From Paracoccaceae bacterium (lineage in GTDB: Bacteria > Pseudomonadota > Alphaproteobacteria > Rhodobacterales > Rhodobacteraceae): a stretch of DNA of 64,000 nt. The notes under the pieces are model-generated. The model was not told the origin of the DNA and made no database searches. It was given only the letters and a program-made list of their open reading frames with translations. This document shows, piece by piece, positions 50,405-64,000 of the stretch. The stretch is taken from assembly GCA_022763485.1 (NCBI GenBank), contig JALEGX010000011.1:19807-83806 (forward strand), in the 5' to 3' direction. The stretch's first letter is position 1. Each line of letters begins with the position of its first letter. The position numbers and the translations under genes are program-made.

Positions 50405-51451
50405 TCAGCCTCCGGTATGGTTCATGCTGCGGGAAACGGCGCCGGCCACGCCCTGTGCGCCATAGGCAAAATCGTGACCTGCGGGCTTGCAGGACAGCGC
50501 TTCGTGGATCGCCTGCTGGATCCGGGGTGCGCCGGGGGCCTTGCGCAGCGCGGGCCGCAGGTCACGGGACCCTTCGCGGCCCAGACAGGTAAAGAGTTCC
50601 CCCCGGCAATTGACGCGGACGCGGTTGCATCCGGCGCAGAAGGTCCGGCTCATCGGGGTGATGAAACCGATCCGCTGTTCGGTGCCGCGCACGTCGCAGT
50701 ACCGGGCCGGGCCGCCGGTGTTGAAGTCGGTGTCCACCAGTGTCAGTCGCCGTTCCAGCAGGGTGCGGACCTCCTGGAGGGGCCAGTATTGCCCCAGCCG
50801 GTCATCGGCGGCGACCTCGCCCATCGGCATCACCTCGATAAAGGAGACGTCACAGCCGCGCTGCAGGGCCCAATCCACCAGATCGGGGAGTTCGGTCTCA
50901 TTGAACCCGCGCAGGGCCATAGTGTTGATCTTGACCCGAAGCCCCGCGGCGCGGGCGGTTTCGATGCCGTTCAACACCTGCTCCAACCGCCCGATGCGGG
51001 TGATTTGGGTGAATTTGGCCGGGTCGATCGTGTCCAGCGAGACATTGACCCGCCGCACGCCATTGTCGGCCAGAAAGGCGGCGTGGCGGGCCAGCTGGGT
51101 GCCGTTGGTGGTCAGGGTGAGCTCCCGCAGCCTGCCCCTGGCGACCTGCTGTCCCAGCTGTTCGATCAGCGCGGTGATCCCGTGGCGAACCAGCGGTTCA
51201 CCGCCGGTCAGGCGGACCTTCTGCACGCCAAGATCGATGAAGGCGCTGGTCAGGTTGACCAGTTCTTCGATGGTCAACAGCTCGCGCCGGGGCAGGAACG
51301 TCATCCGCTCGGCCATGCAATAGGTGCAACGCAGGTCACAACGGTCCGTCACCGACAGGCGCAGGTAATCGACCTTGCGCCCGAACCGGTCGATCAGGCC
51401 GGCCGCGGGGTGCGCCTGTGAACTGGCGCGTGAGCGGTCATCAAAAGGCAT
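50405..51451 (-). CDS. moaA: GTP 3',8-cyclase MoaA
   Basis: MoaA starts molybdenum cofactor synthesis from GTP. The 348-residue protein (start ATG 51451, MPFDDRSRASS; the tracked start at 51613 lies inside moeA) has the radical-SAM motif CDLRCTYC, the TGGEPL loop, the second iron-sulfur cluster motif CAGCNRVRVNCRGELFTCLG and the C-terminal Gly-Gly. It overlaps moeA by 11 bp. Confidence 0.94.
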   Translation of the reverse strand: MPFDDRSRASSQAHPAAGLIDRFGRKVDYLRLSVTDRCDLRCTYCMAERMTFLPRRELLTIEELVNLTSAFIDLGVQKVRLTGGEPLVRHGITALIEQLGQQVARGRLRELTLTTNGTQLARHAAFLADNGVRRVNVSLDTIDPAKFTQITRIGRLEQVLNGIETARAAGLRVKINTMALRGFNETELPDLVDWALQRGCDVSFIEVMPMGEVAADDRLGQYWPLQEVRTLLERRLTLVDTDFNTGGPARYCDVRGTEQRIGFITPMSRTFCAGCNRVRVNCRGELFTCLGREGSRDLRPALRKAPGAPRIQQAIHEALSCKPAGHDFAYGAQGVAGAVSRSMNHTGG

Positions 51452-52751
51452 GGCGGGCTCCGTGTGTGGGTGCGGGGCTAGGGCGGTCGGTGCCGTCAAA
51501 GGGGTGCCAGCGCAGCGCGTCGCCCGGTTGCACCTGTGCGGTTCGGGGCGGCACAAGCGCCAGCCCGTCGGCCTGGGCCAGCGGAAAGAGCGTGGCCGAG
51601 ACGCCTGCGCCAAGGCGGTTCAGGATCGGCTGCCCGTCGGGGGCGGTGCCGGTGATCCGGACCGGAAAGACCTCGGCCCGGCCGGGTTTGCGGGTCCAGT
51701 CGAACCCGGCGTGCGCCGGGGCGTCGGCAAAGGCGGGGACGGGGCGGCCGCCAAGCCGGGCGATCTGTGGCAGGGCAAAGAGATGAAAGCCCACCAGTGC
51801 GGCAAAGGGATTGCCGGGCAAGCCGGTCAGCGCGGTCTGCCCCAGCGTGCCGAGCAGCACGGGCTTGCCGGGTTTCACCGCCACTTTCCACCCTTTGACC
51901 GTGCCTCCGGCGGCCCTGAGGGCGGCCTGCACATGGTCCCTGCCCCCCATGGAAACCGCGCCGGAGGTCAGGATCAGGTCATAGTGGTCCCGCAGTTCCC
52001 GCAGGGCGGCGGTGGTGGTGGCCAGATCATCGGGCAGAATGCCCAGATCGGTGACGATTGCTCCGGCCGCAGAGGCCAGCGCCAGCAACATCGGCCGGTT
52101 GGCATCGGGAATCCGGCCCGCGCGCTGCGGGGCGGTGCCCCCGTCATACAGCTCATCTCCGGTGGAAAAGACCGCCACGCGCGGGCGCGGGGTGACGGGG
52201 ACATGGGTGATCCCATTGGCGGCCAGCAGCCCGATATGGCGGGGGGCGATCCGTGTGCCGGGGGTCAGAAGCGGCTGGCCCGCGTCCTGGTCGCTGCCCT
52301 GCCGGCGGATGTTCTGGCCGGGGGTGGGCCGGGCCATGATGCGGACCCGGTCGCCGTGATCGGTGCATTGTTCCACCATGACAACGGCATCGGCCCCGCG
52401 CGGCAGGGGCGCCCCGGTGTAGATGCGCATCGCCTGACCGGGCGGCAGCGTGCCGGGTTCGGTCCCGGCGGCGACGGTGCCGGCGACGGGCAGGTCCTGC
52501 TGGTCGTGCAGATCGCAACAGCGCAGGGCAAAGCCGTCCATGGCGGAATTGTCGAAGAAGGGCATGGCGTGCGGCGCGGTGACGGCCTGTGCCGCGTGGC
52601 GTCCCAGCGCATCGGCCAGCAAAACGGGCTGCGGCGCGCACAGGGGGCTGATCTGGTCCAGGCTCAGCTCAACCGCCTGGGCAATGGACAGCAGGGGAGC
52701 GCGGGCAACGGCATCGCACCCGCAAGAGGGCTGGATCTGGGCTTCGGGCAT
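51441..52751 (-). CDS. moeA: Molybdopterin molybdenumtransferase MoeA
   Basis: MoeA inserts molybdate into adenylylated molybdopterin. The 436-residue protein has FDNSAMDGFALR near residue 68, YTGAPLPRGADAVVMVEQ, the MoeA/MogA domain with VAVFSTGDEL and LILTSGAVSMGGRDHV, and LTGLPGNPFAALVGF. It is encoded 87 bp after torA on the same strand, before moaA and moaD, suggesting a unit that supplies cofactor to TorA. The N-terminus has two extra Cys (SCGCD). Confidence 0.93.
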   Translation of the reverse strand: MPEAQIQPSCGCDAVARAPLLSIAQAVELSLDQISPLCAPQPVLLADALGRHAAQAVTAPHAMPFFDNSAMDGFALRCCDLHDQQDLPVAGTVAAGTEPGTLPPGQAMRIYTGAPLPRGADAVVMVEQCTDHGDRVRIMARPTPGQNIRRQGSDQDAGQPLLTPGTRIAPRHIGLLAANGITHVPVTPRPRVAVFSTGDELYDGGTAPQRAGRIPDANRPMLLALASAAGAIVTDLGILPDDLATTTAALRELRDHYDLILTSGAVSMGGRDHVQAALRAAGGTVKGWKVAVKPGKPVLLGTLGQTALTGLPGNPFAALVGFHLFALPQIARLGGRPVPAFADAPAHAGFDWTRKPGRAEVFPVRITGTAPDGQPILNRLGAGVSATLFPLAQADGLALVPPRTAQVQPGDALRWHPFDGTDRPSPAPTHGARHAF

Positions 52752-52838: not shown

Positions 52839-55505
52839 TTATTGTGCGTCGGACGCGTTCTTCATCAGGTAGTCCATGACCAGCGCGCGTTCGCCGTCAT
52901 CCAGCCCGGCCCGTTCGAACATGGAGGGCACGATGCCTTTCCATTGCTGCTGCGTGTAGTGGGTCACTTCGCGCGGCGCGTGGCAGACGGTGCAGCGTTC
53001 GAAGAACACCTTTTCACCCGGGGTCATATCCGCCATCAGCGCGGCGGTCAGATCCCCCAGACGATCCAGTCCCAGAACATCATCGTCGATGGCGGCGACC
53101 TCCATGTCCTCGATGATCGCGGGCTTCTCGTACGCCATGTTCGGACCTTCGGGGTCTTCGCATTTGCGCATTTCGATCAGCACCGTGTTGGCCGAGGTCG
53201 CCTCGGACAGGCCCGAGGCACGCTGGGTCGAGGTGATGAAGTTCACCAGGCCCGAGTTGCAGCGTCCCTTGCTGTCCAGCGATGGCCAGCAGCCTTCGTA
53301 GATCGACACCACGCCGGGCATGATGTCATCGGAGACAACGGCCCCGGCGATCACCGTGCCGCGGTCGTTGAAGAGCTCGACCAGATCGCCATCCGCGATG
53401 CCACGGGCGGCGGCGTCTTCGGCGTTGATGCGGACCGGTTCGCGGCCCTGCACCTTGTAGATGCCGCGCAGGGTTTCGGACTGGTCCATCTGGCTGTGCA
53501 GGCGGAACCAGGGGTGCGGCGACACCACATGCAGCTGGCCTTCTTTGGCGACGCCAAGATATTCGTGCTTCTCCAGCCACATCGGCATGCCGGGGCAGTC
53601 TTCGATTTCCATCTTGGCGATGGTGTCGCAGAACATCTCGATCTTGCCCGAAGAGGTGTGCAGCGGGCTGCCTTCGGGATCGCGGATAAAGGCGTTGTGA
53701 CGGACCCAGCCGCGCGCCTCTTGCGGCACCGGCATCCGGGCATAGCCCTTTTCCCAGAACTCCTCGAACGGCAGGTCCTTGGCCGCGCCCGAGGCCTCAT
53801 AGGCCAGCTTGATGTGATACATCTTGTCTTCGCTGTCGGTGAACTGCGCCCACAGACCCAGCTTGTCGGCCAGACCTTCGAAGATCTCATAGTCCGGCAG
53901 GCTGTCGCCGATTGGCTCGATCACCTTCTTCATCGCGTAGACCCGGTCGTTGGAATAGGTCCCACCCGAGGTGATGTCATCCTGTTCCAGCGTCGAGGCG
54001 GCGGGCATCACGATATCGGCCCAGCGGGTTGCGGCGGTCCACCAGACGTCGACGCTGATCACGGTTTCCACCTTGTTCAGGGCGCGGATCAACCGGTTGG
54101 TGTCCTGCTGGTGCGACATGAAGTTGTTGCCCGCGTTGAAGATCACCTTGATGTCCGGATAGACGTTGGTCTGCCCGTTGTAGAAAAACTCCATGCCGGG
54201 GTTTTCCAGCGCTTCGGTGATGCGCGAGGCGGGCACGATCTTCTTGACGAAGTTGCGGCCCTGGCTCATGCCGACGGGCGTTGCGTTGCCCCCCTGCGGC
54301 ATGCCGCCGTTGCCATAATGCCAGGAGAAGCCGACCCCCTGACCCGGCTGGCCGATCTTGCCCAGAAGCGCAGCGAAGTTGACGATCGACCAATAGGCCA
54401 TTTCCCCGTGCTGGGCCCGCTGGATCGCCCAGGAGGCACCGATATTGGTTTTCTTGGCGGCGATCAGCTCGGCCAGATCGCGGATGTCCTGTGCGTTGAT
54501 CCCGGTGATCGCGGCCGCCCAGTCCGGCGTTTTCGGGGTGCCGTCGGTGTCGCCTTTGACATAGGCAATCCATTTGTCTGCGCCGACGGTGTATGCGTCC
54601 ATATAGGCGCGGTCTTCCAGACCCTTGTCCAGAACGTGATAGGCCATGGACAGGAACAGCGCGGTATCGGTGTTGGGGATGATCCGCTTCCATTCTGCGT
54701 TCAGGTATTCGTCACTGGCGGTCCGCTGCGGGTTGATCGAGATGAAGCGCACGCCATTGTCGCGGATTTCTTCCCAGTGGGCATACATGCCGTGGTCGGC
54801 GACGCGATATTCGATGCGGTTGTTCTTGATCGGGTCACAGCCCACCAGCACGAACAGCTCGGTATGGTCGCGGATGGTTTCCCAGGCCGATTGGGCCGAA
54901 TAGACCTCCATGTCGCCGATGATATGCGGCATGACCACCTGCCCGGCACCGGCGGACCAGTCGCCCGCGGTATTGGTGCAGCCGCCCATCAGGTTGATCA
55001 GGCGCCCCTGCAGAACGTTGGGGCGGAACACGCCCGCGTTGGACCAGCCGCCATAGGACGAGCTGAAGATCGCTTCGTTGCCGTGGTTGGTGGCGGTGTC
55101 CAGCAGCGCCTTGGCGGTCAGGCTCCAGGCGGTGTCCCAGTCCACCTTGACCCATTCTTCCTTGCCGCGCAGCTCGGGTTTGGTGTCGCCGGTCTGCCAG
55201 CCTTGCAGATAGGATTTGCGGACCATCGGATAGTTGATCCGGGTCTTGTCATAGGTGCGGTCCATGACGCCGTGGCTCAGCATTTCGGTGGGGCGGGCGT
55301 CCAGCTCCATCATCGTGTTAATACCCACCAGCTTGCCGTCGCGGACGACGGCTTCGAACGGGCCGAAGTGGGTGGCGTGGAAGATACGTCCGGCAAAGGA
55401 ATTGGGGTCGATCGACGCCAGGGCGGTCGTGTTCATCAGGGCGGTGGCCCCAATGGCGGCGCTGCCTTGCAGGAACATACGACGGGTTGGATTTGCAAAT
55501 GTCAT
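52839..55505 (-). CDS. torA: Trimethylamine-N-oxide reductase TorA with fused C-terminal cytochrome c domain
   Basis: TorA reduces TMAO to trimethylamine in the periplasm. The 888-residue protein has a twin-arginine signal (TRRMFLQGSAAIGATALM), then the DMSO-reductase fold with SYGGWSNAG (molybdenum-ligand Ser) and bis-MGD contacts such as VGCDPIKNNR and NAGNNFMSHQQDTN. Catalytic-domain homology ends near residue 796. The last about 90 residues form an extra domain with a c-type haem motif CTVCH (residues 838-842) followed by QQQWKGIVPSMFERAGLDDGERALVMDYL, resembling the final mono-haem domain of TorC. No separate TorC or TorD gene is in the window. Confidence 0.93.
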   Translation of the reverse strand: MTFANPTRRMFLQGSAAIGATALMNTTALASIDPNSFAGRIFHATHFGPFEAVVRDGKLVGINTMMELDARPTEMLSHGVMDRTYDKTRINYPMVRKSYLQGWQTGDTKPELRGKEEWVKVDWDTAWSLTAKALLDTATNHGNEAIFSSSYGGWSNAGVFRPNVLQGRLINLMGGCTNTAGDWSAGAGQVVMPHIIGDMEVYSAQSAWETIRDHTELFVLVGCDPIKNNRIEYRVADHGMYAHWEEIRDNGVRFISINPQRTASDEYLNAEWKRIIPNTDTALFLSMAYHVLDKGLEDRAYMDAYTVGADKWIAYVKGDTDGTPKTPDWAAAITGINAQDIRDLAELIAAKKTNIGASWAIQRAQHGEMAYWSIVNFAALLGKIGQPGQGVGFSWHYGNGGMPQGGNATPVGMSQGRNFVKKIVPASRITEALENPGMEFFYNGQTNVYPDIKVIFNAGNNFMSHQQDTNRLIRALNKVETVISVDVWWTAATRWADIVMPAASTLEQDDITSGGTYSNDRVYAMKKVIEPIGDSLPDYEIFEGLADKLGLWAQFTDSEDKMYHIKLAYEASGAAKDLPFEEFWEKGYARMPVPQEARGWVRHNAFIRDPEGSPLHTSSGKIEMFCDTIAKMEIEDCPGMPMWLEKHEYLGVAKEGQLHVVSPHPWFRLHSQMDQSETLRGIYKVQGREPVRINAEDAAARGIADGDLVELFNDRGTVIAGAVVSDDIMPGVVSIYEGCWPSLDSKGRCNSGLVNFITSTQRASGLSEATSANTVLIEMRKCEDPEGPNMAYEKPAIIEDMEVAAIDDDVLGLDRLGDLTAALMADMTPGEKVFFERCTVCHAPREVTHYTQQQWKGIVPSMFERAGLDDGERALVMDYLMKNASDAQ

Positions 55506-55618: not shown

Positions 55619-56323
55619 ATGTCACAGCATCTGTTGATCGTCGAAGATGACCGCACCACCCGTATGCGCCTGGCGGGGTATCTGCGTGAGCAGGGCCATC
55701 GCGTCAGCACCGCGTCAGACGCGGAAGAGATGGAAAGCATCATCGAATTCGATCCCCCCGATCTGCTGTTGGTGGATATCAACATGGACGGAAAGGACGG
55801 GCTGACCATCACCCGCGAGCAGCGGGCGAAATCGCGGGTGGGCATCATCCTGCTGACCGCGCGGGATGATCAGGTGGACAAGATTGTCGGGCTGGAGATG
55901 GGGGCGGATGATTATGTCACCAAACCCTTCGACAAGCGTGAACTGGCGGCGCGGGTCAAGAACCTGCTGGCCCGCATCGCCGACATCGGGCAGGCCCCGC
56001 AGGGCGCCCCGGCGGTGGACACGTTTGGCCCCTGGCGGCTGGACCGGATCCGGCACCGCCTGGTGTCCGCGGCACGGGTCGAGACGCTGACCCCGCAGGA
56101 ATTCGCGGTGATGACCGCGCTGGCCGATCACCCCGGCCAGACGCTCAGCCGGGCCCGCCTGTCCGAGATCATGGGCCGTCCGGCCTCGCGGCCCAATGAC
56201 CGGATGATCGACGTGGTGGTGGGGCGATTGCGCAAGAAGCTGGAGCAGGATCCGACCAACCCCGAATGGCTGTTGACCGAACACGGCAAGGGCTATCGGT
56301 TCGTGGATCCGGGAACCGTCTGA
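55619..56323 (+). CDS. torR: Response regulator TorR (OmpR family)
   Basis: The 234-residue protein has a receiver domain (LLIVEDDRTTRMRLAGYL; phospho-acceptor Asp in LLVDINMDG; LLTARDD; the Lys in DDYVTKPFDKREL) and an OmpR-type winged helix (LTPQEFAVMTALADHPGQTLSRARLSEIMGR, then DVVVGRLRKKLEQDP and GKGYRF). It is divergent from torA and convergent with torS, overlapping its 3' end by 31 bp. It should activate torA when TMAO is sensed. No good ribosome site precedes ATG 55619. Confidence 0.92.
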   Translation: MSQHLLIVEDDRTTRMRLAGYLREQGHRVSTASDAEEMESIIEFDPPDLLLVDINMDGKDGLTITREQRAKSRVGIILLTARDDQVDKIVGLEMGADDYVTKPFDKRELAARVKNLLARIADIGQAPQGAPAVDTFGPWRLDRIRHRLVSAARVETLTPQEFAVMTALADHPGQTLSRARLSEIMGRPASRPNDRMIDVVVGRLRKKLEQDPTNPEWLLTEHGKGYRFVDPGTV

Positions 56324-59100
56324 AGCCCGGCCTTGCGGGCGGCGTCATGCAGGGTGGCAATTGCGCGGGTGGCGGCCTCCTGCAAGGCCTGAAACATGCC
56401 GTCGCTGACCGGTCCGTCCGGGGTTTCGAACCGGATCAGCTCGTCGCGCAGCTCGGTCAGCTGAAAGTTCATCACCGCCCCTTTCAGGCGATGCGCCAGC
56501 TTGCGGTGGTCGGCGGGCGCGGCGGTGATGATCTGTTGCACGGCGCCGGGGATCTCATCAATCAGGGTCTGCACGATGTTCTGCGCGGTTTCGGCGCCAA
56601 GATCGGCGATGTCGTCTTGCAGGATCCGCAGCGTGACGTCGCTGGCCGCGCCGTGGACCGCTGGCGACGCGTCCGGTGGCGCAGCGGCGGTGCCGTCAGA
56701 CAGAAGATCCACCAGAGCCCGCGGCGAGATCGGTTTCGACAGGATCCGGTCGACGCCCAGCTTGGCCCGATCCTGCGCGGTGTCCGCAACCGAAAACGCG
56801 GTCAGCGCCGCCAGCGTCGTGTCGGGTGAGATCCGGCGCAGCCGCACGGCCAGATCCGCGCCGGGCATGTCGGGCAGATCCAGATCGATGAGGATCAGAT
56901 CAAAGCGGGTCGCCTGCGCGGCGGCCACCGCGCCCTTGCCGTTGGCGGCTTCGGCCACGCTGCAGCCCAGCCGTTCCAGGTAACCGCGCGACACGATCCT
57001 GTTGACCGCGTGATCGTCGATCACCAGCACCGACTGCCGGAACTCCGGGCCCTGCCCGCGGTCGTCGGCGGTGGGCAGCTGCGCCGGGTCGCCCAGCTGC
57101 ACCGGCACTGTCAGGGTGAACCGGCTGCCGATGCCGGGCTGGCTTTCGGCGTTGAGCGCACCGCCCATCGCCTCGGTCAGCTGGCGGGCAATGGGCAGGC
57201 CCAGCCCCACGCCTTCGACCCCGCTGTGGCGCATCTGGTCGGTGCGCGCGTAGACGTCAAAGGCGTGATCCAGCTCGGGCACAGTCATCCCGACGCCGGT
57301 GTCGCTGACCACGAAGCTGAGCGCAGAGGTGCCGGTAGCCGCATCGGTGGCGAAATCCACGCTCAGCGACACGCTGCCCTGAGGCGTGTATTTCACCGCA
57401 TTCGACAGCAGGTTGGTCACCACCTGGCGGATCTTGACGGCGTCACCGATCAGCACCGGCGGGATCTGGGCGCGGAAATCCACATCCGTGGCCAGCCCGG
57501 CGGGCGCGGCCAACGCCTGCAGGTATTCCGCCATCTGGCCGGTCATCGTGCGGGTTTCGAAATGCACCGGGGCGACGGCGGTGCGGGGGTCATCGCTGCT
57601 GGAAAAGGTCAGGATGTCATTGGTGATCGCCAGCAGATCCTGCGCTGATCCCAGCGTCATGGCAATGCGGGCCCTGCGGTCGGCGTCGGTCTCATCGGCT
57701 TCCAGCAGCCCCAAGAGCCCGATCACCCCGTTCAGCGGCGTGCGGATTTCGTGGCTCATGCGGGCCAGGAATTCGGTCTTGCTGCGGTTGGCGGATTCCG
57801 CCTCGGCCCGCGCGGCATTGGCGGCGTGCATTTCGCGCACCACATCGCCGGTTCGTTCCAGCACCGCATCGGCCAGATTTGCGCGCAGCTTTTCGGAATC
57901 GGCGGCGCGGCGGCGCAGGATGTTCAGCGCCTTTTCCATGCGGCCGATTTCATCGTGACCGGTCAGCGGCACCTTCTGGGCATAGTCGCCGCCCGCCACC
58001 CGCACGATGCGTTCGGAGACCGCGTGCAGGCGCGCGATGATCGAGCGCCGCAGCCGCCGCCAGGCCAGCGCGCCGATGATCGTGCAGAAGATGACAAACA
58101 GCAGCAGCCCCACCGACAGCTGAATGCTCAGCCGGTTGTTCGCGGCGATCTGTGACAACACCCGGGTCATCGCCGCCTGCCGGGTTTCCTGTGCGCTGGT
58201 GGCTAGCGCTGTGATCCGCTCGCGCAGGACAAAGCTGTCGCTCTCGATCTGCAGCTGCGCCTCCAGCTCCTGTCGGCGCAGGGAAAACAGGCCACCGGGA
58301 TCCAGCGCCTTGCGCTGGACCGCAAGCAGTGCCCGCGCTTCGTCCTGACCTGAGAGCGTGGGCAGGTATTCGAGCCGCCGGGACACCAGTCTGTAGAGCC
58401 TTTCGATCCGGCGGCGTTCCTCCCTCAGCAGCGGAACGGACTGGATTTCGACAATCTGCTGCAAGGCCCCCTGCACCGTGTCAGCCACGCGGGTCAGCTC
58501 GGTCAGGCGGTCAAAGGCAAAGAAATGCCGGTCGGCCAGCAGGTCCAGCCCCTTGTCCACATCCGAAGGCGCGGCGGAATAGATGTCACTGACGCCGGAG
58601 GTGACCCGCAGACGTGCCAGATCCAGTTGCGCCTCCAGCAGCAGGTCGAACCGCAGGCTGGTGTCCTTTTGCACGGCCAGTTGCCGGGCCATATGGTTTT
58701 TCAGCCGCAGCACCTGCCGGGCATTGCGGGACATGCGCGTGACGATCAGCCGGATATCGGCGGTGCTGGAGGTCTGGTCGGGGTTCCGGCTCAGCAGTTC
58801 CAGCTGATTGACCCCGGCCTCGATCCGTTCCAGCGACCGGGTCAGCGAAACGGTCAGATCCTGCAGGGTCTGCGACGAGTCCGCCTGGACAAAGGCGGTG
58901 GCGAATTGCGCGGTCAGCCCGGCCTCTGTTCCGACGTTGCTGGCCAGTTCGACAATAGGCAGATTCTGCTGGATCAGCCGCCCATGCGAGCGGATCAGAT
59001 ACCAGTTGACCGCAATCGCGGTGAGGCCCACCATGATCGCCATTGCTCCCAGAAAGGAGTAAACCAGGATCAACCGTCTGTCGAAGGAACCTCGCGCCAT
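56293..59100 (-). CDS. torS: Hybrid sensor histidine kinase TorS
   Basis: The 935-residue protein starts with a membrane helix (ILVYSFLGAMAIMVGLTAIAV), a long helical periplasmic sensor domain, a second helix (LSVGLLLFVIFCTIIGALAW), then HAMP. The histidine kinase core follows (FLARMSHEIRTPLNGVIGLL with the phospho-His; VTNLLSNAVKYT; SDTGVGM). It ends with a receiver domain (VLVIDDHAVNR... LILIDLDLPDMPG) and an HPt domain (HRKLAHRLKGAVMNF). This four-step phosphorelay layout is that of TorS. It would receive the TMAO signal through TorT, encoded divergently with only 25 bp between start codons. Confidence 0.92.
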   Translation of the reverse strand: MARGSFDRRLILVYSFLGAMAIMVGLTAIAVNWYLIRSHGRLIQQNLPIVELASNVGTEAGLTAQFATAFVQADSSQTLQDLTVSLTRSLERIEAGVNQLELLSRNPDQTSSTADIRLIVTRMSRNARQVLRLKNHMARQLAVQKDTSLRFDLLLEAQLDLARLRVTSGVSDIYSAAPSDVDKGLDLLADRHFFAFDRLTELTRVADTVQGALQQIVEIQSVPLLREERRRIERLYRLVSRRLEYLPTLSGQDEARALLAVQRKALDPGGLFSLRRQELEAQLQIESDSFVLRERITALATSAQETRQAAMTRVLSQIAANNRLSIQLSVGLLLFVIFCTIIGALAWRRLRRSIIARLHAVSERIVRVAGGDYAQKVPLTGHDEIGRMEKALNILRRRAADSEKLRANLADAVLERTGDVVREMHAANAARAEAESANRSKTEFLARMSHEIRTPLNGVIGLLGLLEADETDADRRARIAMTLGSAQDLLAITNDILTFSSSDDPRTAVAPVHFETRTMTGQMAEYLQALAAPAGLATDVDFRAQIPPVLIGDAVKIRQVVTNLLSNAVKYTPQGSVSLSVDFATDAATGTSALSFVVSDTGVGMTVPELDHAFDVYARTDQMRHSGVEGVGLGLPIARQLTEAMGGALNAESQPGIGSRFTLTVPVQLGDPAQLPTADDRGQGPEFRQSVLVIDDHAVNRIVSRGYLERLGCSVAEAANGKGAVAAAQATRFDLILIDLDLPDMPGADLAVRLRRISPDTTLAALTAFSVADTAQDRAKLGVDRILSKPISPRALVDLLSDGTAAAPPDASPAVHGAASDVTLRILQDDIADLGAETAQNIVQTLIDEIPGAVQQIITAAPADHRKLAHRLKGAVMNFQLTELRDELIRFETPDGPVSDGMFQALQEAATRAIATLHDAARKAGLQTVPGSTNR

Positions 59101-59125: not shown

Positions 59126-60094
59126 ATGCGTTCAATCGGCCTCGTCCTTGGGGTATGGCTGCTGGCCCTCCTGTCTGTGTTGCCTGTGCGGGCGGCCAGC
59201 GCAGAGCGCAGTTTCTGCGTGCTGGTGCCGCACTTCAAGGATGAATACTGGCTGAGCGTCGGCTACGGGCTGGAACAGGCCGCCCGGCAGCGTGGCATCA
59301 CCCTGCGGTTCTTTGAGGCGGGGGGCTATCACGCGCGGGAACGCCAGATCGAACAGCTGCGCTTCTGCGCGGCAAGCCGGGCCGAGGCGATCCTGCTGGG
59401 TGCGGTGACATCCGATCATCCGACCTTTCTGGCCACCGTGGCCGAGGTCAGCCAATCGGTGCCGGTCTTTGGTCTGGTCAATGAATTGCACGCGCCCGAG
59501 CTGGTCGGAGCGATCGGCGTGGACTGGCAGGACATGGGGGAGTCGCTGGCCCGTTTCCTGGCCGAGCGCCATCCCCAGGAGTCCGAGCCGAAGACCGCGG
59601 TGCTGATCTCGGGGCCGGCGGAATCGGGATGGGCGCCGCCGCTGGAGCTGGGCATTCGCACCGCGCTGGACAACAGCAGCCTGCGGATCGTCCGGGTGTT
59701 CGGTGCGGACACCGGTCTGCGACAACAGCTGGCCATGGTCGAAGAGGCGCTGGCCGAGGTTCCCGACATGGATTACCTGATCGGCAGCGCGCCGGCGGTT
59801 GAGGCGGCGATCGGAATGCTGGCAAGCCAGGACCGCGCCACCCGGCCCCAGCTGGTGTCGACCTATATCAGCCACACGGTCAAACGCGGTCTGCTGAACG
59901 GTCAGGTTCTGGCCGTGCCCTTCGATGATCCGATGCGTCAGGGAGAGATGATGATCGACGCGGTCGAAGGTCTGGTGCCGCTCAATGCGCTGCCCAGCTT
60001 TACCGGGCCTGACATCCTGTTGCTGACACAGGGCAATACCAGCGCGGATCAGGTCAAGCTGTCGCCCTCGAACTATTTCCCGACCATCGAATGA
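59126..60094 (+). CDS. torT: Periplasmic TMAO-binding protein TorT
   Basis: The 322-residue protein has a Sec signal peptide (SIGLVLGVWLLALLSVLPVRAASA) and a periplasmic-binding-protein fold of the LacI/RbsB type (FCVLVPHFKDEYWLSVGYGLEQAA, ILLGAVTSDHP, IGVDWQDMGESLARFLAER). TorT binds TMAO and contacts the periplasmic domain of TorS. The gene is divergent from torS, so their promoters must overlap each other or the coding ends. Confidence 0.9.
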   Translation: MRSIGLVLGVWLLALLSVLPVRAASAERSFCVLVPHFKDEYWLSVGYGLEQAARQRGITLRFFEAGGYHARERQIEQLRFCAASRAEAILLGAVTSDHPTFLATVAEVSQSVPVFGLVNELHAPELVGAIGVDWQDMGESLARFLAERHPQESEPKTAVLISGPAESGWAPPLELGIRTALDNSSLRIVRVFGADTGLRQQLAMVEEALAEVPDMDYLIGSAPAVEAAIGMLASQDRATRPQLVSTYISHTVKRGLLNGQVLAVPFDDPMRQGEMMIDAVEGLVPLNALPSFTGPDILLLTQGNTSADQVKLSPSNYFPTIE

Positions 60095-60162: not shown

Positions 60163-62154
60163 CTATCGCGACAGGCCCAGCATCTTGGTCCGCTTCGCAG
60201 ACCAGCTCATGATGGTCAGATCGAAGGTCAGCGCCATCAGCGCGACATTCATCCCCAGCACGAAGTTCTTGCCCAGATCGGTTCCCGCCAGCGTGCGCTG
60301 CAGCTCCTGGCCCAGGTCCTGCGTTCCGATGAAGGCGGCGATGATCACCATGAAGAAGGCAAACATGATGGCCTGGTTGAACCCCACCGCCATGGTGGGC
60401 AGGGCCAGCGGCAGCTGCACGCTCATCAGCTTCTGCCGCTTGGTGGCCCCCGACATATCCGCCGCTTCGGTCATTTCTGGCGGCACATTGCGCAGCCCTT
60501 CGATGGTATAGCGGGTCAGCGGCACCGTGGTGAAGATCACGATGGACAGAACCACGGTCACATCCGACACGCCGAACAGCATGATCGCAGGCAGCAGATA
60601 GATGAAGCTGGGGAAGGTCTGTGCCGTGTCGCAGAACAGCAGGATCCGTTCGGCCAGCCGCTTTGAGCGGGACGCCATGATGCCCAGCGGGATGCCGATC
60701 ATCATCGACAGGATCACCGCCGAGATGACAGAATAGAGCGTGATCACCGAGCGGTCCCACCAGCCGGAAAAGGCGACGACGGAGAAGAAGATCGCGGCAT
60801 AGATCGCCGGACGCCGCCCGCCGACGATCCAGGAGAACGCCACCACCATCAGGATGAAGGATGAGGTCGGGATCCACAGCAGGAAGTTGCGGAACGGGAT
60901 CAGCACCCAGACGTTCAGCACATAGCGCAGCGTTTCGGTCACCGCCTGCACCGCGTCGATGGCCAGGAACCCCTTGATGACCTTGTCGATCTCACGCCCC
61001 ATGGACAGCGATTGCCGGCGGCCCACCTTGTCCAGGATGTCCACGAACTGCCCCAGCACCAGAAACAGCGCAAAGGCTGACAGGGTGATCAGCAGATACT
61101 TGTGGCGCACATACCAGGGGGTGCCGCGTTCATGATGCACCGGCAGCTTGACGACCCAGGCCTTGGACATGCGGTCCAGCATCACCGCCACCAGAACAAT
61201 GGTCACGCCGATTTCGAACGACCGGCCCAGCTTGAAGCTGTTCATCATCGCCAGCAGCTTGCCGCCCAGACCGGGCATGCCGATGAAGGCGGTCAGCACC
61301 ACCATTGCCAGACACAGCATGATCACCTGGTTGACGCCGACCAGAATCTCGGTCCGGGCCGAGGGGATATAGACCCTGAACAGCATCTGCATCCGGGTGC
61401 AGCCGGACATCTTGCCCGCCTCGACCACCTCATGCGAGACTTTCTTCAGCCCCAATGTGGTCATCAGCACCATGGGCGGAATGGCATAGATCGTGGTCGC
61501 GATGGCCCCCGCGGTGGGCCCCACCTTGAAGAAGATGACCGCCGGCAGAAGATAGGTGAAGAACGGAATGGTCTGCAGGATGGCCAGCACCGGCTTGATC
61601 ACCCGTTCGAACCAGCCCCATTTCCACGCCGCGATGCCCAGGATGATGCCCGCCAGAAAGGCCAGCGGCACGGCCACGGCCAGCACCGAAAGGGTTTGCA
61701 TGGCGATCTTCCACTGGCCGACAAGCGCGGTCCAGACAAAGGTGCCGCCGCCCAGCAGCGCCAGCCGCCACCCCCCGAGATAGAAGCCGATCCCGGCGGC
61801 AACCGCCGCAACCGCGCTCCAGGGCAGCGGCTCGAAATAGGGCCAGCGATGCTTGCCTTCCAGCAGGTTGGCGGTGAAGCCCAGCATGAAGTCCAGCGGG
61901 CCTTCGGCAAACCAGCGGGTCAGGTGGATCAACCCGGGTCGCCCGGTTTCCAGATCGCCCTTGATGACCTCAAAGAAGCGATCCAGCCAGCTCGCCAGCG
62001 GCGGCACCCAGGCTTCGGGAATGCGGATCAGGAACTCCGGCAGGATCGGCTTTGCCAGACAGAAGAGCAGCGCCAGGCCCAGCAGCGCGGTGAACACCGG
62101 GTCATAGGAAACGGAGGGCTGCTTCTGTGGTGTCGGGGTTGCGATGTCTGCCAT
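60163..62154 (-). CDS. tmoW: ProW-family ABC permease with two fused permease domains (probable TMAO importer TmoW)
   Basis: The protein of about 663 residues is twice the usual ProW length because it contains two permease modules, each with an EAA-like loop (VVEAGKMSGCTRMQMLFRVYIPSA and MTEAADMSGATKRQKLMSVQLP). A double permease of this kind is known for the Roseobacter TMAO transporter TmoXWV. Start ATG 62154 has GGGAG 9 nt upstream; 62163 is also possible, overlapping the ATPase gene. Vicinity of torT/torS/torA supports TMAO as substrate. Glycine betaine or choline are alternatives. Confidence 0.82.
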   Translation of the reverse strand: MADIATPTPQKQPSVSYDPVFTALLGLALLFCLAKPILPEFLIRIPEAWVPPLASWLDRFFEVIKGDLETGRPGLIHLTRWFAEGPLDFMLGFTANLLEGKHRWPYFEPLPWSAVAAVAAGIGFYLGGWRLALLGGGTFVWTALVGQWKIAMQTLSVLAVAVPLAFLAGIILGIAAWKWGWFERVIKPVLAILQTIPFFTYLLPAVIFFKVGPTAGAIATTIYAIPPMVLMTTLGLKKVSHEVVEAGKMSGCTRMQMLFRVYIPSARTEILVGVNQVIMLCLAMVVLTAFIGMPGLGGKLLAMMNSFKLGRSFEIGVTIVLVAVMLDRMSKAWVVKLPVHHERGTPWYVRHKYLLITLSAFALFLVLGQFVDILDKVGRRQSLSMGREIDKVIKGFLAIDAVQAVTETLRYVLNVWVLIPFRNFLLWIPTSSFILMVVAFSWIVGGRRPAIYAAIFFSVVAFSGWWDRSVITLYSVISAVILSMMIGIPLGIMASRSKRLAERILLFCDTAQTFPSFIYLLPAIMLFGVSDVTVVLSIVIFTTVPLTRYTIEGLRNVPPEMTEAADMSGATKRQKLMSVQLPLALPTMAVGFNQAIMFAFFMVIIAAFIGTQDLGQELQRTLAGTDLGKNFVLGMNVALMALTFDLTIMSWSAKRTKMLGLSR

Positions 62155-62155
62155 G

Positions 62156-63184
62156 TCAGTCATCTCCCAGCAGCACATCCAGCGCGGCCTGCCGGTTCAG
62201 CACACCGATCAGCGCGCCGTCCTTGCCGGCCACCGGCAGGTTGTCGCGCGTGTCGCTCACCAACTGGCGGGCCAGCTGGTGAATGGTGTGGTCCCCGATC
62301 ACCGGATCACCTTCGACCGCGGTGCCATTGAGCGGCCGGGCCAGCACGCTGGCATGGACGACCCGCGACTTTTCGATCTCTTCGGTGAACTTGCGGACAT
62401 AGGGGGTCTTGGGGTTCAGCACGATCTGATCGGGGGTGTCGCATTGTTCGATGGCCCCGTTGCGCATGATGGCAATCCGGTCGGCCAGCCGCAGGGCTTC
62501 GTCAAAATCATGGGTGATGAAGACGATGGTCTTGCCCAGCATCTCTTGCAGGCGCAGGAATTCGTCCTGCATCTCGCGGCGGATCAGCGGATCCAGCGCC
62601 GAAAACGGTTCATCCAGGAACCAGATGTCGGGTTCAATAGCCAGTGAGCGGGCGATGCCGACGCGCTGTTGCTGGCCCCCGGACAATTCGCGGGGGAAAT
62701 ATTCCTCGCGGCCTTCCAGGCCCACCAGCTTGATCACCTCCAAAGCGCGTTCGCGGCGGTCGTGGCGGTTCTGACCGCGCATCTCCAGCGGAAAGGCCAC
62801 ATTGTCCAGAACCGTGCGGTGCGGCAGCAGCCCGAAGGACTGGAACACCATGCCCATTTTGGAGCGTCGCAGTTCGATCAGGTCCTTTTCGGCCAGGGCC
62901 ATCACGTCCTGCCCTTCGACCTCGATCGTGCCGCCGGTGATTTCATGCAGGCGGGAAAAGCAGCGGACCAGCGTGGATTTGCCGGAGCCCGACAGGCCCA
63001 TGATGACCAGCATCTCGCCCCGCGCGACATCGACCGACACATCCTTGACACCCGCAATATAGCCATCGGCGTGGATTTTTTCGAAGCTATGCCCTGCCGG
63101 CATGGAGGCCAGATATTGCTTCGGGTTGGCCCCGAACAGTTTCCAGACGTTGCGACAGCTGATGACGGGGGTGTCTTTGTTCAT
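62156..63184 (-). CDS. tmoV: ProV-family ABC transporter ATPase with CBS domain (probable TmoV)
   Basis: The 342-residue protein has Walker A (GLSGSGKSTLVRC), the Q-loop (VFQSFGLLPHRT), signature LSGGQQQRVGIARSLA, Walker B (IWFLDEPFSALD) and the H-loop (FITHDFDEAL). A C-terminal region (about 270-342) looks like CBS motifs that sense ionic strength in osmolyte importers. It is followed directly by the double permease gene. Start ATG 63184 (MNKDTPVISCRNVWKLFG). Confidence 0.88.
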   Translation of the reverse strand: MNKDTPVISCRNVWKLFGANPKQYLASMPAGHSFEKIHADGYIAGVKDVSVDVARGEMLVIMGLSGSGKSTLVRCFSRLHEITGGTIEVEGQDVMALAEKDLIELRRSKMGMVFQSFGLLPHRTVLDNVAFPLEMRGQNRHDRRERALEVIKLVGLEGREEYFPRELSGGQQQRVGIARSLAIEPDIWFLDEPFSALDPLIRREMQDEFLRLQEMLGKTIVFITHDFDEALRLADRIAIMRNGAIEQCDTPDQIVLNPKTPYVRKFTEEIEKSRVVHASVLARPLNGTAVEGDPVIGDHTIHQLARQLVSDTRDNLPVAGKDGALIGVLNRQAALDVLLGDD

Positions 63185-63276
63185 TGTGTGGTGCTTTCTC
63201 CAGGGACGTTCACCGGGGGAACGGTCCGTGAATCCTTGATTGCCCCGCGGTGCCGCGGGTTGGGCCGGTGCCGGAA

Positions 63277-63305
63277 GCCCATCCCGGAGGATCCCCGGGA
63301 TGGGC
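63277..63305. terminator. Intercistronic hairpin between binding protein and ATPase genes
   Basis: GCCCATCCCGG and CCGGGATGGGC form a perfect 11-bp stem with a 7-nt loop. A second perfect dyad CCCGCGG-TG-CCGCGGG (63244-63259) lies next to it. Such structures after binding-protein genes keep the receptor mRNA abundant relative to the membrane parts. Confidence 0.55.
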
Positions 63306-63325
63306 GGCGTTTCGCGATGGGTGGA

Positions 63326-64000
<675 letters not shown>

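Follow-up and report, generated by a model that had tools for sequence, protein, structure and literature searches.

The locus analysed here raises the question of how electrons reach a reductase of TMAO, a compound of fish and algae that is linked to odour, when the enzyme carries a haem c domain at its own C terminus and no torC gene lies beside it. In the E. coli TorCAD system, which is likewise a periplasmic TMAO reductase regulated by TorT, TorS and TorR, the homologous domain is the last one of TorC, a pentahaem quinol dehydrogenase of the membrane, and there is a dedicated TorD. The window, by which the whole analysed stretch of 64,000 nucleotides from a Paracoccaceae bacterium is meant (assembly GCA_022763485.1, contig JALEGX010000011.1, positions 19,807 to 83,806), contains the fusion gene together with its putative regulators.

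A preliminary description of this DNA had placed an open reading frame at 52839–55505, which does exist but lies on the minus strand, with an ATG at 55505 and a stop at 52839. It codes for a precursor of 888 amino acids (~98.4 kDa; ~95.3 kDa for the mature form, with an assumed cleavage behind residue 30). Residues 1–30 (55416–55505, minus strand) form a Tat (twin-arginine) signal region with the motif TRRMFLQG, in which R8 and R9 are invariant, whereas the catalytic molybdopterin S/N-oxide reductase region, as judged from profile and structure matches, spans residues 39–797 (53115–55391, minus strand). The bisC_fam profile TIGR00509 gave a full-length catalytic match (residues 44–797 against positions 1–769 of the 772 in the model, E=6e-250), and the TorA profile NF011682 also matched (E=2.5e-206). 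The TIGR00509 score of 831.6 bits lies below the subfamily cut-off of 1017.55, and the curated TorA cut-offs were not reached either (652.7 vs. 1465 bits for TIGR02164 and 687.4 vs. 909 bits for NF011682). Since these scores fall under the TorA cut-offs, the predicted protein is, by strict profile criteria, a relative of TorA and not a canonical TorA.

Among enzymes of solved structure, the best relative of the catalytic region is the Rhodobacter DMSO reductase, of the DorA/DorC type, which differs in that the enzyme carries no haem domain, has the pentahaem DorC as its partner and shows SYGW instead of SYGGW in the active-site loop. This loop (residues 150–154, 55044–55058, minus strand, located by alignment) contains an extra Gly relative to the SYGW of TorZ/BisC/DorA-type enzymes, and its Tyr is missing in E. 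coli TorA; SYGGW is the form of the fused clade, and SYGW that of TorZ, BisC and most of the sampled DorA/TorA-type enzymes. The predicted molybdenum ligand, Ser184 (54954–54956, minus strand), is invariant and lies in GDWSAGA, which aligns with the GDYSTGA of TorA/TorZ/BisC; from what is known of the family, we take this serine to be the residue that binds Mo. The serine ligand and the Tat export signal, marks of the periplasmic branch, are thus both present in the fusion protein.

The C-terminal part, residues 806–888 (52842–53090, minus strand), comprises a linker and a monohaem c domain, delimited from a structural model and from the TorC homology of residues 830–887. The latter residues matched positions 325–382 of the 387 in the TorC model TIGR02162 (E=2.7e-8), and the haem-binding motif CTVCH, supported by sequence and by its conservation in relatives, occupies residues 838–842 (52980–52994, minus strand). 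Two proposals of the preliminary description, that this TorA-like protein has a C-terminal c-type haem domain of its own and that the domain resembles the last one of TorC, were therefore borne out. In an alignment of 28 sequences, C838, C841, H842, W855, G857 and M862 were invariant, as were the twin arginines and Ser184, and the CXXCH, W, G and M positions of the haem domain are common to E. coli TorC. Because the methionine position is also found in E. coli TorC, the invariant Met862 (52920–52922, minus strand) is a candidate for the sixth haem ligand. When modelled in isolation, the haem domain (residues 806–888) was all-helical, with a mean pLDDT of 89, and a fold search with it returned only a weak match to a dihaem cytochrome c (3u99, E=0.41, probability 0.97). 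The full-length AlphaFold model had a mean pLDDT of 63, too poor for placing the haem against the active site.

A search for proteins with the same fusion revealed 45 loci in the genome scan, mostly in Rhodobacterales, plus Cohaesibacter, Kiloniella and Pseudovibrio, and the haem motif, as C[TS][VL]CH, was kept in all of the 43 whose C terminus is in the contig, which rules out a chance CXXCH. A frameshift or readthrough joining two genes was likewise ruled out, as the continuous frame is also found in dozens of unrelated assemblies. Plasmid records added Leisingera, Defluviimonas, Shinella, Paracoccus, Azospirillum and Photobacterium, and in this search the fused homologues shared 55% identity or more with the query, against ~39% for the best unfused ones. 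As far as sequence tells, the fusion is ordinary within its own lineage and represents a widespread, conserved architecture. In a tree of the catalytic region, in which the unfused enzymes were sampled by seven rows, a long-stemmed branch with an SH-aLRT support of 100% set the 19 fused sequences apart, the catalytic domain of E. coli TorA lying across it, a topology compatible with one old fusion event. The annotated relatives in the plasmid records are labelled only 'molybdopterin-dependent oxidoreductase', and a literature search among open-access papers gave no description of the gene fusion. Given this generic label and TorA scores below the cut-off, surveys based on torC would miss the fusion enzymes. 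In the record of Photobacterium sp. DA100 (L087:5953-8639), the frame of the fused torA relative is split in two pieces, which may reflect decay or a sequencing error.

The genes around the fusion correspond to those of a TMAO-responsive locus. Divergent from torA is the torR response regulator gene (55619–56323, plus strand; NF008034 below cut-off, assigned by synteny), next to which lie the torS hybrid sensor kinase gene (56293–59100, minus strand; TIGR02956 with E=1e-120, below cut-off, also assigned by synteny) and torT, for the periplasmic TMAO-sensing protein (59126–60094, plus strand; NF008185 over cut-off). Downstream of torA and on the same strand are moeA (molybdopterin molybdotransferase, 51441–52751, minus strand) and moaA (GTP 3',8-cyclase, 50405–51613, minus strand, as the frame is listed, its true start being probably further in), both identified by profile matches and synteny. 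The order torT-torS-torR-torA is typical and kept in most relatives, and in many of them moeA and moaA also come after torA, often with a DUF2478 gene between. Identity between clusters was ~30–50% for TorS vs. 68–90% for TorA in most clusters, with the synteny kept; torS is near most fusion genes, the loci L012, L013, L031 and L045 having none nearby. Clustering of the neighbourhoods revealed no gene conserved across most loci beyond the tor and molybdenum-cofactor genes, and neither torC nor torD nor a gene for any other haem protein was a conserved neighbour of the fused torA. Beside torT, the window also holds a quaternary-amine-type ABC transporter (60163–63925, minus strand, cut by the contig end), consisting of an OpuAC-like binding protein (63326–63925 or longer), a ProV-like ATPase (62156–63184) and a 671-aa protein with two permease domains (60163–62178), all on the minus strand, which may be a TMAO/choline-type uptake system.

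The preliminary description had also stated that the window contains neither TorC nor TorD. This holds, and no pentahaem TorC was found in the rest of the genome either (4.18 Mb in 161 contigs, 93% complete). A TorC hidden elsewhere was considered and discarded, as the search gave only a NapC and a NirT-like protein as members of the NapC family. The former adjoins a NapB-like dihaem protein and the latter, by inspection of the sequence, apparent nirS and norC genes. The NirT-like protein (G000:C12:654-1223, L051) has a fifth haem motif and is truncated where its contig ends. The single TorD-family protein of this genome adjoins formate dehydrogenase, no torD being present in the tor cluster, and a TorD-family protein was missing in 4 of the 30 fusion genomes examined for it.

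With such proteins at hand, the fused haem could be fed by a tetrahaem quinol dehydrogenase of the NapC/NirT type, in which case the fifth haem would merely have moved from TorC to TorA. This would make the energetics with ubiquinol simpler, and a NapC-type protein is present in about half of the fusion genomes, besides the two proteins of the window's own genome. However, when the TorC/NapC/NirT family was searched for in 54 fusion-bearing genomes, the fused domain was the only match in 27 of the 53 that had any. Complete or near-complete isolates are among these 27 genomes, of which 16 are named isolates and a further one has a completeness rating of 100%. The adjacency of the own-genome NapC to a NapB-like protein also counts against this donor, which we thus regard as unlikely.

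Pentahaem TorC itself co-occurs with the fusion in approximately nine genomes, so that mutual exclusion of the two by genome, as an initial idea, was too strong. Seven of these TorC regions were fetched, one of which ran off its contig; in all six readable ones, TorC adjoins an unfused TorA/DorA of its own, and in five of them also TorD. TorC is therefore an unlikely partner of the fused enzyme, and where the enzyme lacks the fusion it is TorC that carries the relay domain, whereas a fused enzyme carries it itself.

What can be read directly from the DNA is a predicted catalytic domain, a TorC-type haem c domain, a Tat motif, neighbouring genes for TorT, TorS and TorR, and no dedicated TorC. 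The reading that we favour, and hold to be fairly probable, is that of a periplasmic Tat-exported TMAO reductase whose fused TorC-type haem is fed via cytochrome bc1 and a soluble carrier, mainly as an overflow valve. In this route, ubiquinol would be oxidised by cytochrome bc1, and a small soluble carrier, either cytochrome c2-like or, in some lineages, pseudoazurin, would collect the electrons and dock on the fused haem. The latter would pass single electrons in succession on to molybdenum, where TMAO would be turned into trimethylamine, so that a dedicated membrane TorC would not be required. The valve would relieve a cytochrome chain that has become over-reduced and keep it turning over under scarce oxygen and abundant TMAO.

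The bc1/soluble-carrier route is favoured because half of the fusion genomes lack other members of the NapC/TorC family, because cytochrome c1 of bc1 was found in 22 of 22 fusion genomes tested, and because a gene for pseudoazurin, a soluble copper electron carrier, is a recurrent neighbour. Such a gene is present in the fused-torA operon at five loci, from Ruegeria arenilitoris, Fluviibacterium (a partial match), two Sulfitobacter and Leisingera caerulea. The coordinates of the inserted pseudoazurin genes, in no particular order of species, are L096:11574-12008, L005:12616-13023, L025:14691-15068, L034:14649-15074 and L024:14650-14799, and a gene of the carboxymuconolactone-decarboxylase family comes after them. 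Two of these five genomes (G943 and G950) are without any NapC/TorC. Against this reading, pseudoazurin had no match in the window's own genome, and the NapC-type protein found in about half of the fusion genomes offers a possible alternative. The entry of electrons from a soluble cytochrome c or the bc1 chain, which the preliminary description had put forward, is thus favoured by these data rather than settled.

A parallel for the proposed route is provided by TorA-TorB (Cj0264-Cj0265) of C. jejuni, where TMAO reduction needs bc1 and TorB, a monohaem domain of the type found at the C terminus of TorC, works with TorA downstream of bc1 and serves it without TorC (PMC6195509). The differences are that TorB is a separate soluble protein and menaquinol the donor, whereas here the domain is fused and no menaquinone synthesis is recognisable. 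Consequently, the "different wiring" of TMAO respiration suggested in the preliminary description is not new in itself, a haem-c TMAO reductase having also been reported from Roseobacter denitrificans in 1992.

This parallel also reveals an energetic awkwardness of the bc1 route with ubiquinone only, which had been left out of the preliminary description. With a membrane gradient of ~180 mV to work against, electron transfer from ubiquinol (+90 mV) to TMAO (+130 mV) through bc1, a proton pump, is clearly unfavourable, a difficulty with which C. jejuni copes by using menaquinol (PMC6195509). No MqnA/D and no MenD over cut-off were detected in any of the 19 fusion genomes tested for menaquinone synthesis, from which these bacteria are apparently ubiquinone-only, and the bc1 route would therefore be energetically poor in them. 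It should run only with a strongly reduced cytochrome pool, with an excess of TMAO and escape of TMA, or under a low gradient, which makes electron overflow, or redox balancing, a more likely role than strong energy conservation. More tentatively, the fused-TorA lineage might tie the ubiquinone/bc1/cytochrome c pool directly to a low-potential acceptor, either as a near-equilibrium overflow valve or even through reversible TMA/TMAO chemistry, and not as a respiration that conserves energy in the classical way.

An enzyme with such properties may already have been isolated. In 1992, Arata, Shimizu and Takamiya reportedly purified from Roseobacter denitrificans OCh114 a TMAO reductase with subunits of ~90 kDa, haem c (~+200 mV) and a Mo cofactor, for which cytochrome c2 is said to be the direct electron donor. 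The bacterium belongs to the same group, the reported ~90 kDa is to be compared with the 95.3 kDa predicted for the mature fusion protein, and the latter has one CXXCH and Mo-binding domains. The fusion gene is a probable candidate for the gene behind this haem-c enzyme; if the R. denitrificans enzyme is its product, biochemistry had already revealed the wiring, to which only the underlying sequence is now added.

The same energetics could be taken to mean that the enzyme chiefly runs backwards or has a different substrate, oxidising trimethylamine or a sulfide, while the fused haem releases the electrons to cytochrome c and the oxidases. Electrons would then run downhill from TMA/TMAO (+130 mV) to cytochrome c of high potential in bacteria that apparently have ubiquinone only, and the catalytic lineage is set apart by its long branch and its altered active-site loop. 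However, the conserved torT-torS-torR cluster implies induction by TMAO, the close relatives are reductases, and the R. denitrificans enzyme reportedly reduces TMAO with electrons from cytochrome c2, all of which makes a reversed or different main reaction very improbable. A role of the haem domain chiefly in sensing or docking, off the electron path, for example to signal haem maturation to TorS, as reported in E. coli by the binding of apo-TorC to TorS (PMC11727998), we find hardly credible, even with torS near most fusion genes. The residues that bind the haem do not vary within a deep lineage, and both E. coli and C. jejuni are proposed to feed TorA through the homologous domain (PMC6195509). 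Were it not on the path, no way for electrons to reach TorA could be named in these genomes. TorS, moreover, is much less conserved than TorA and missing near some fusion genes.

The fusion gene offers a likely molecular identity for the haem-c TMAO reductase chemistry of the Roseobacter group and predicts that TMAO reduction without TorC is possible in many marine bacteria. It also poses a bioenergetic question, that of pushing electrons from the level of cytochrome c to TMAO in cells that are apparently ubiquinone-only. One relay domain is found in three arrangements, on TorC, as the free TorB and fused to TorA. Segments matching the middle and C-terminal parts of TorC (positions ~212–384) and lacking the tetrahaem part were also detected in frames of 574, 637 and 244 aa (G092:C71:19123-19614, G131:C136:150349-150873 and G007:C11:45068-45532), which may have arisen by other rearrangements of the same relay domain.
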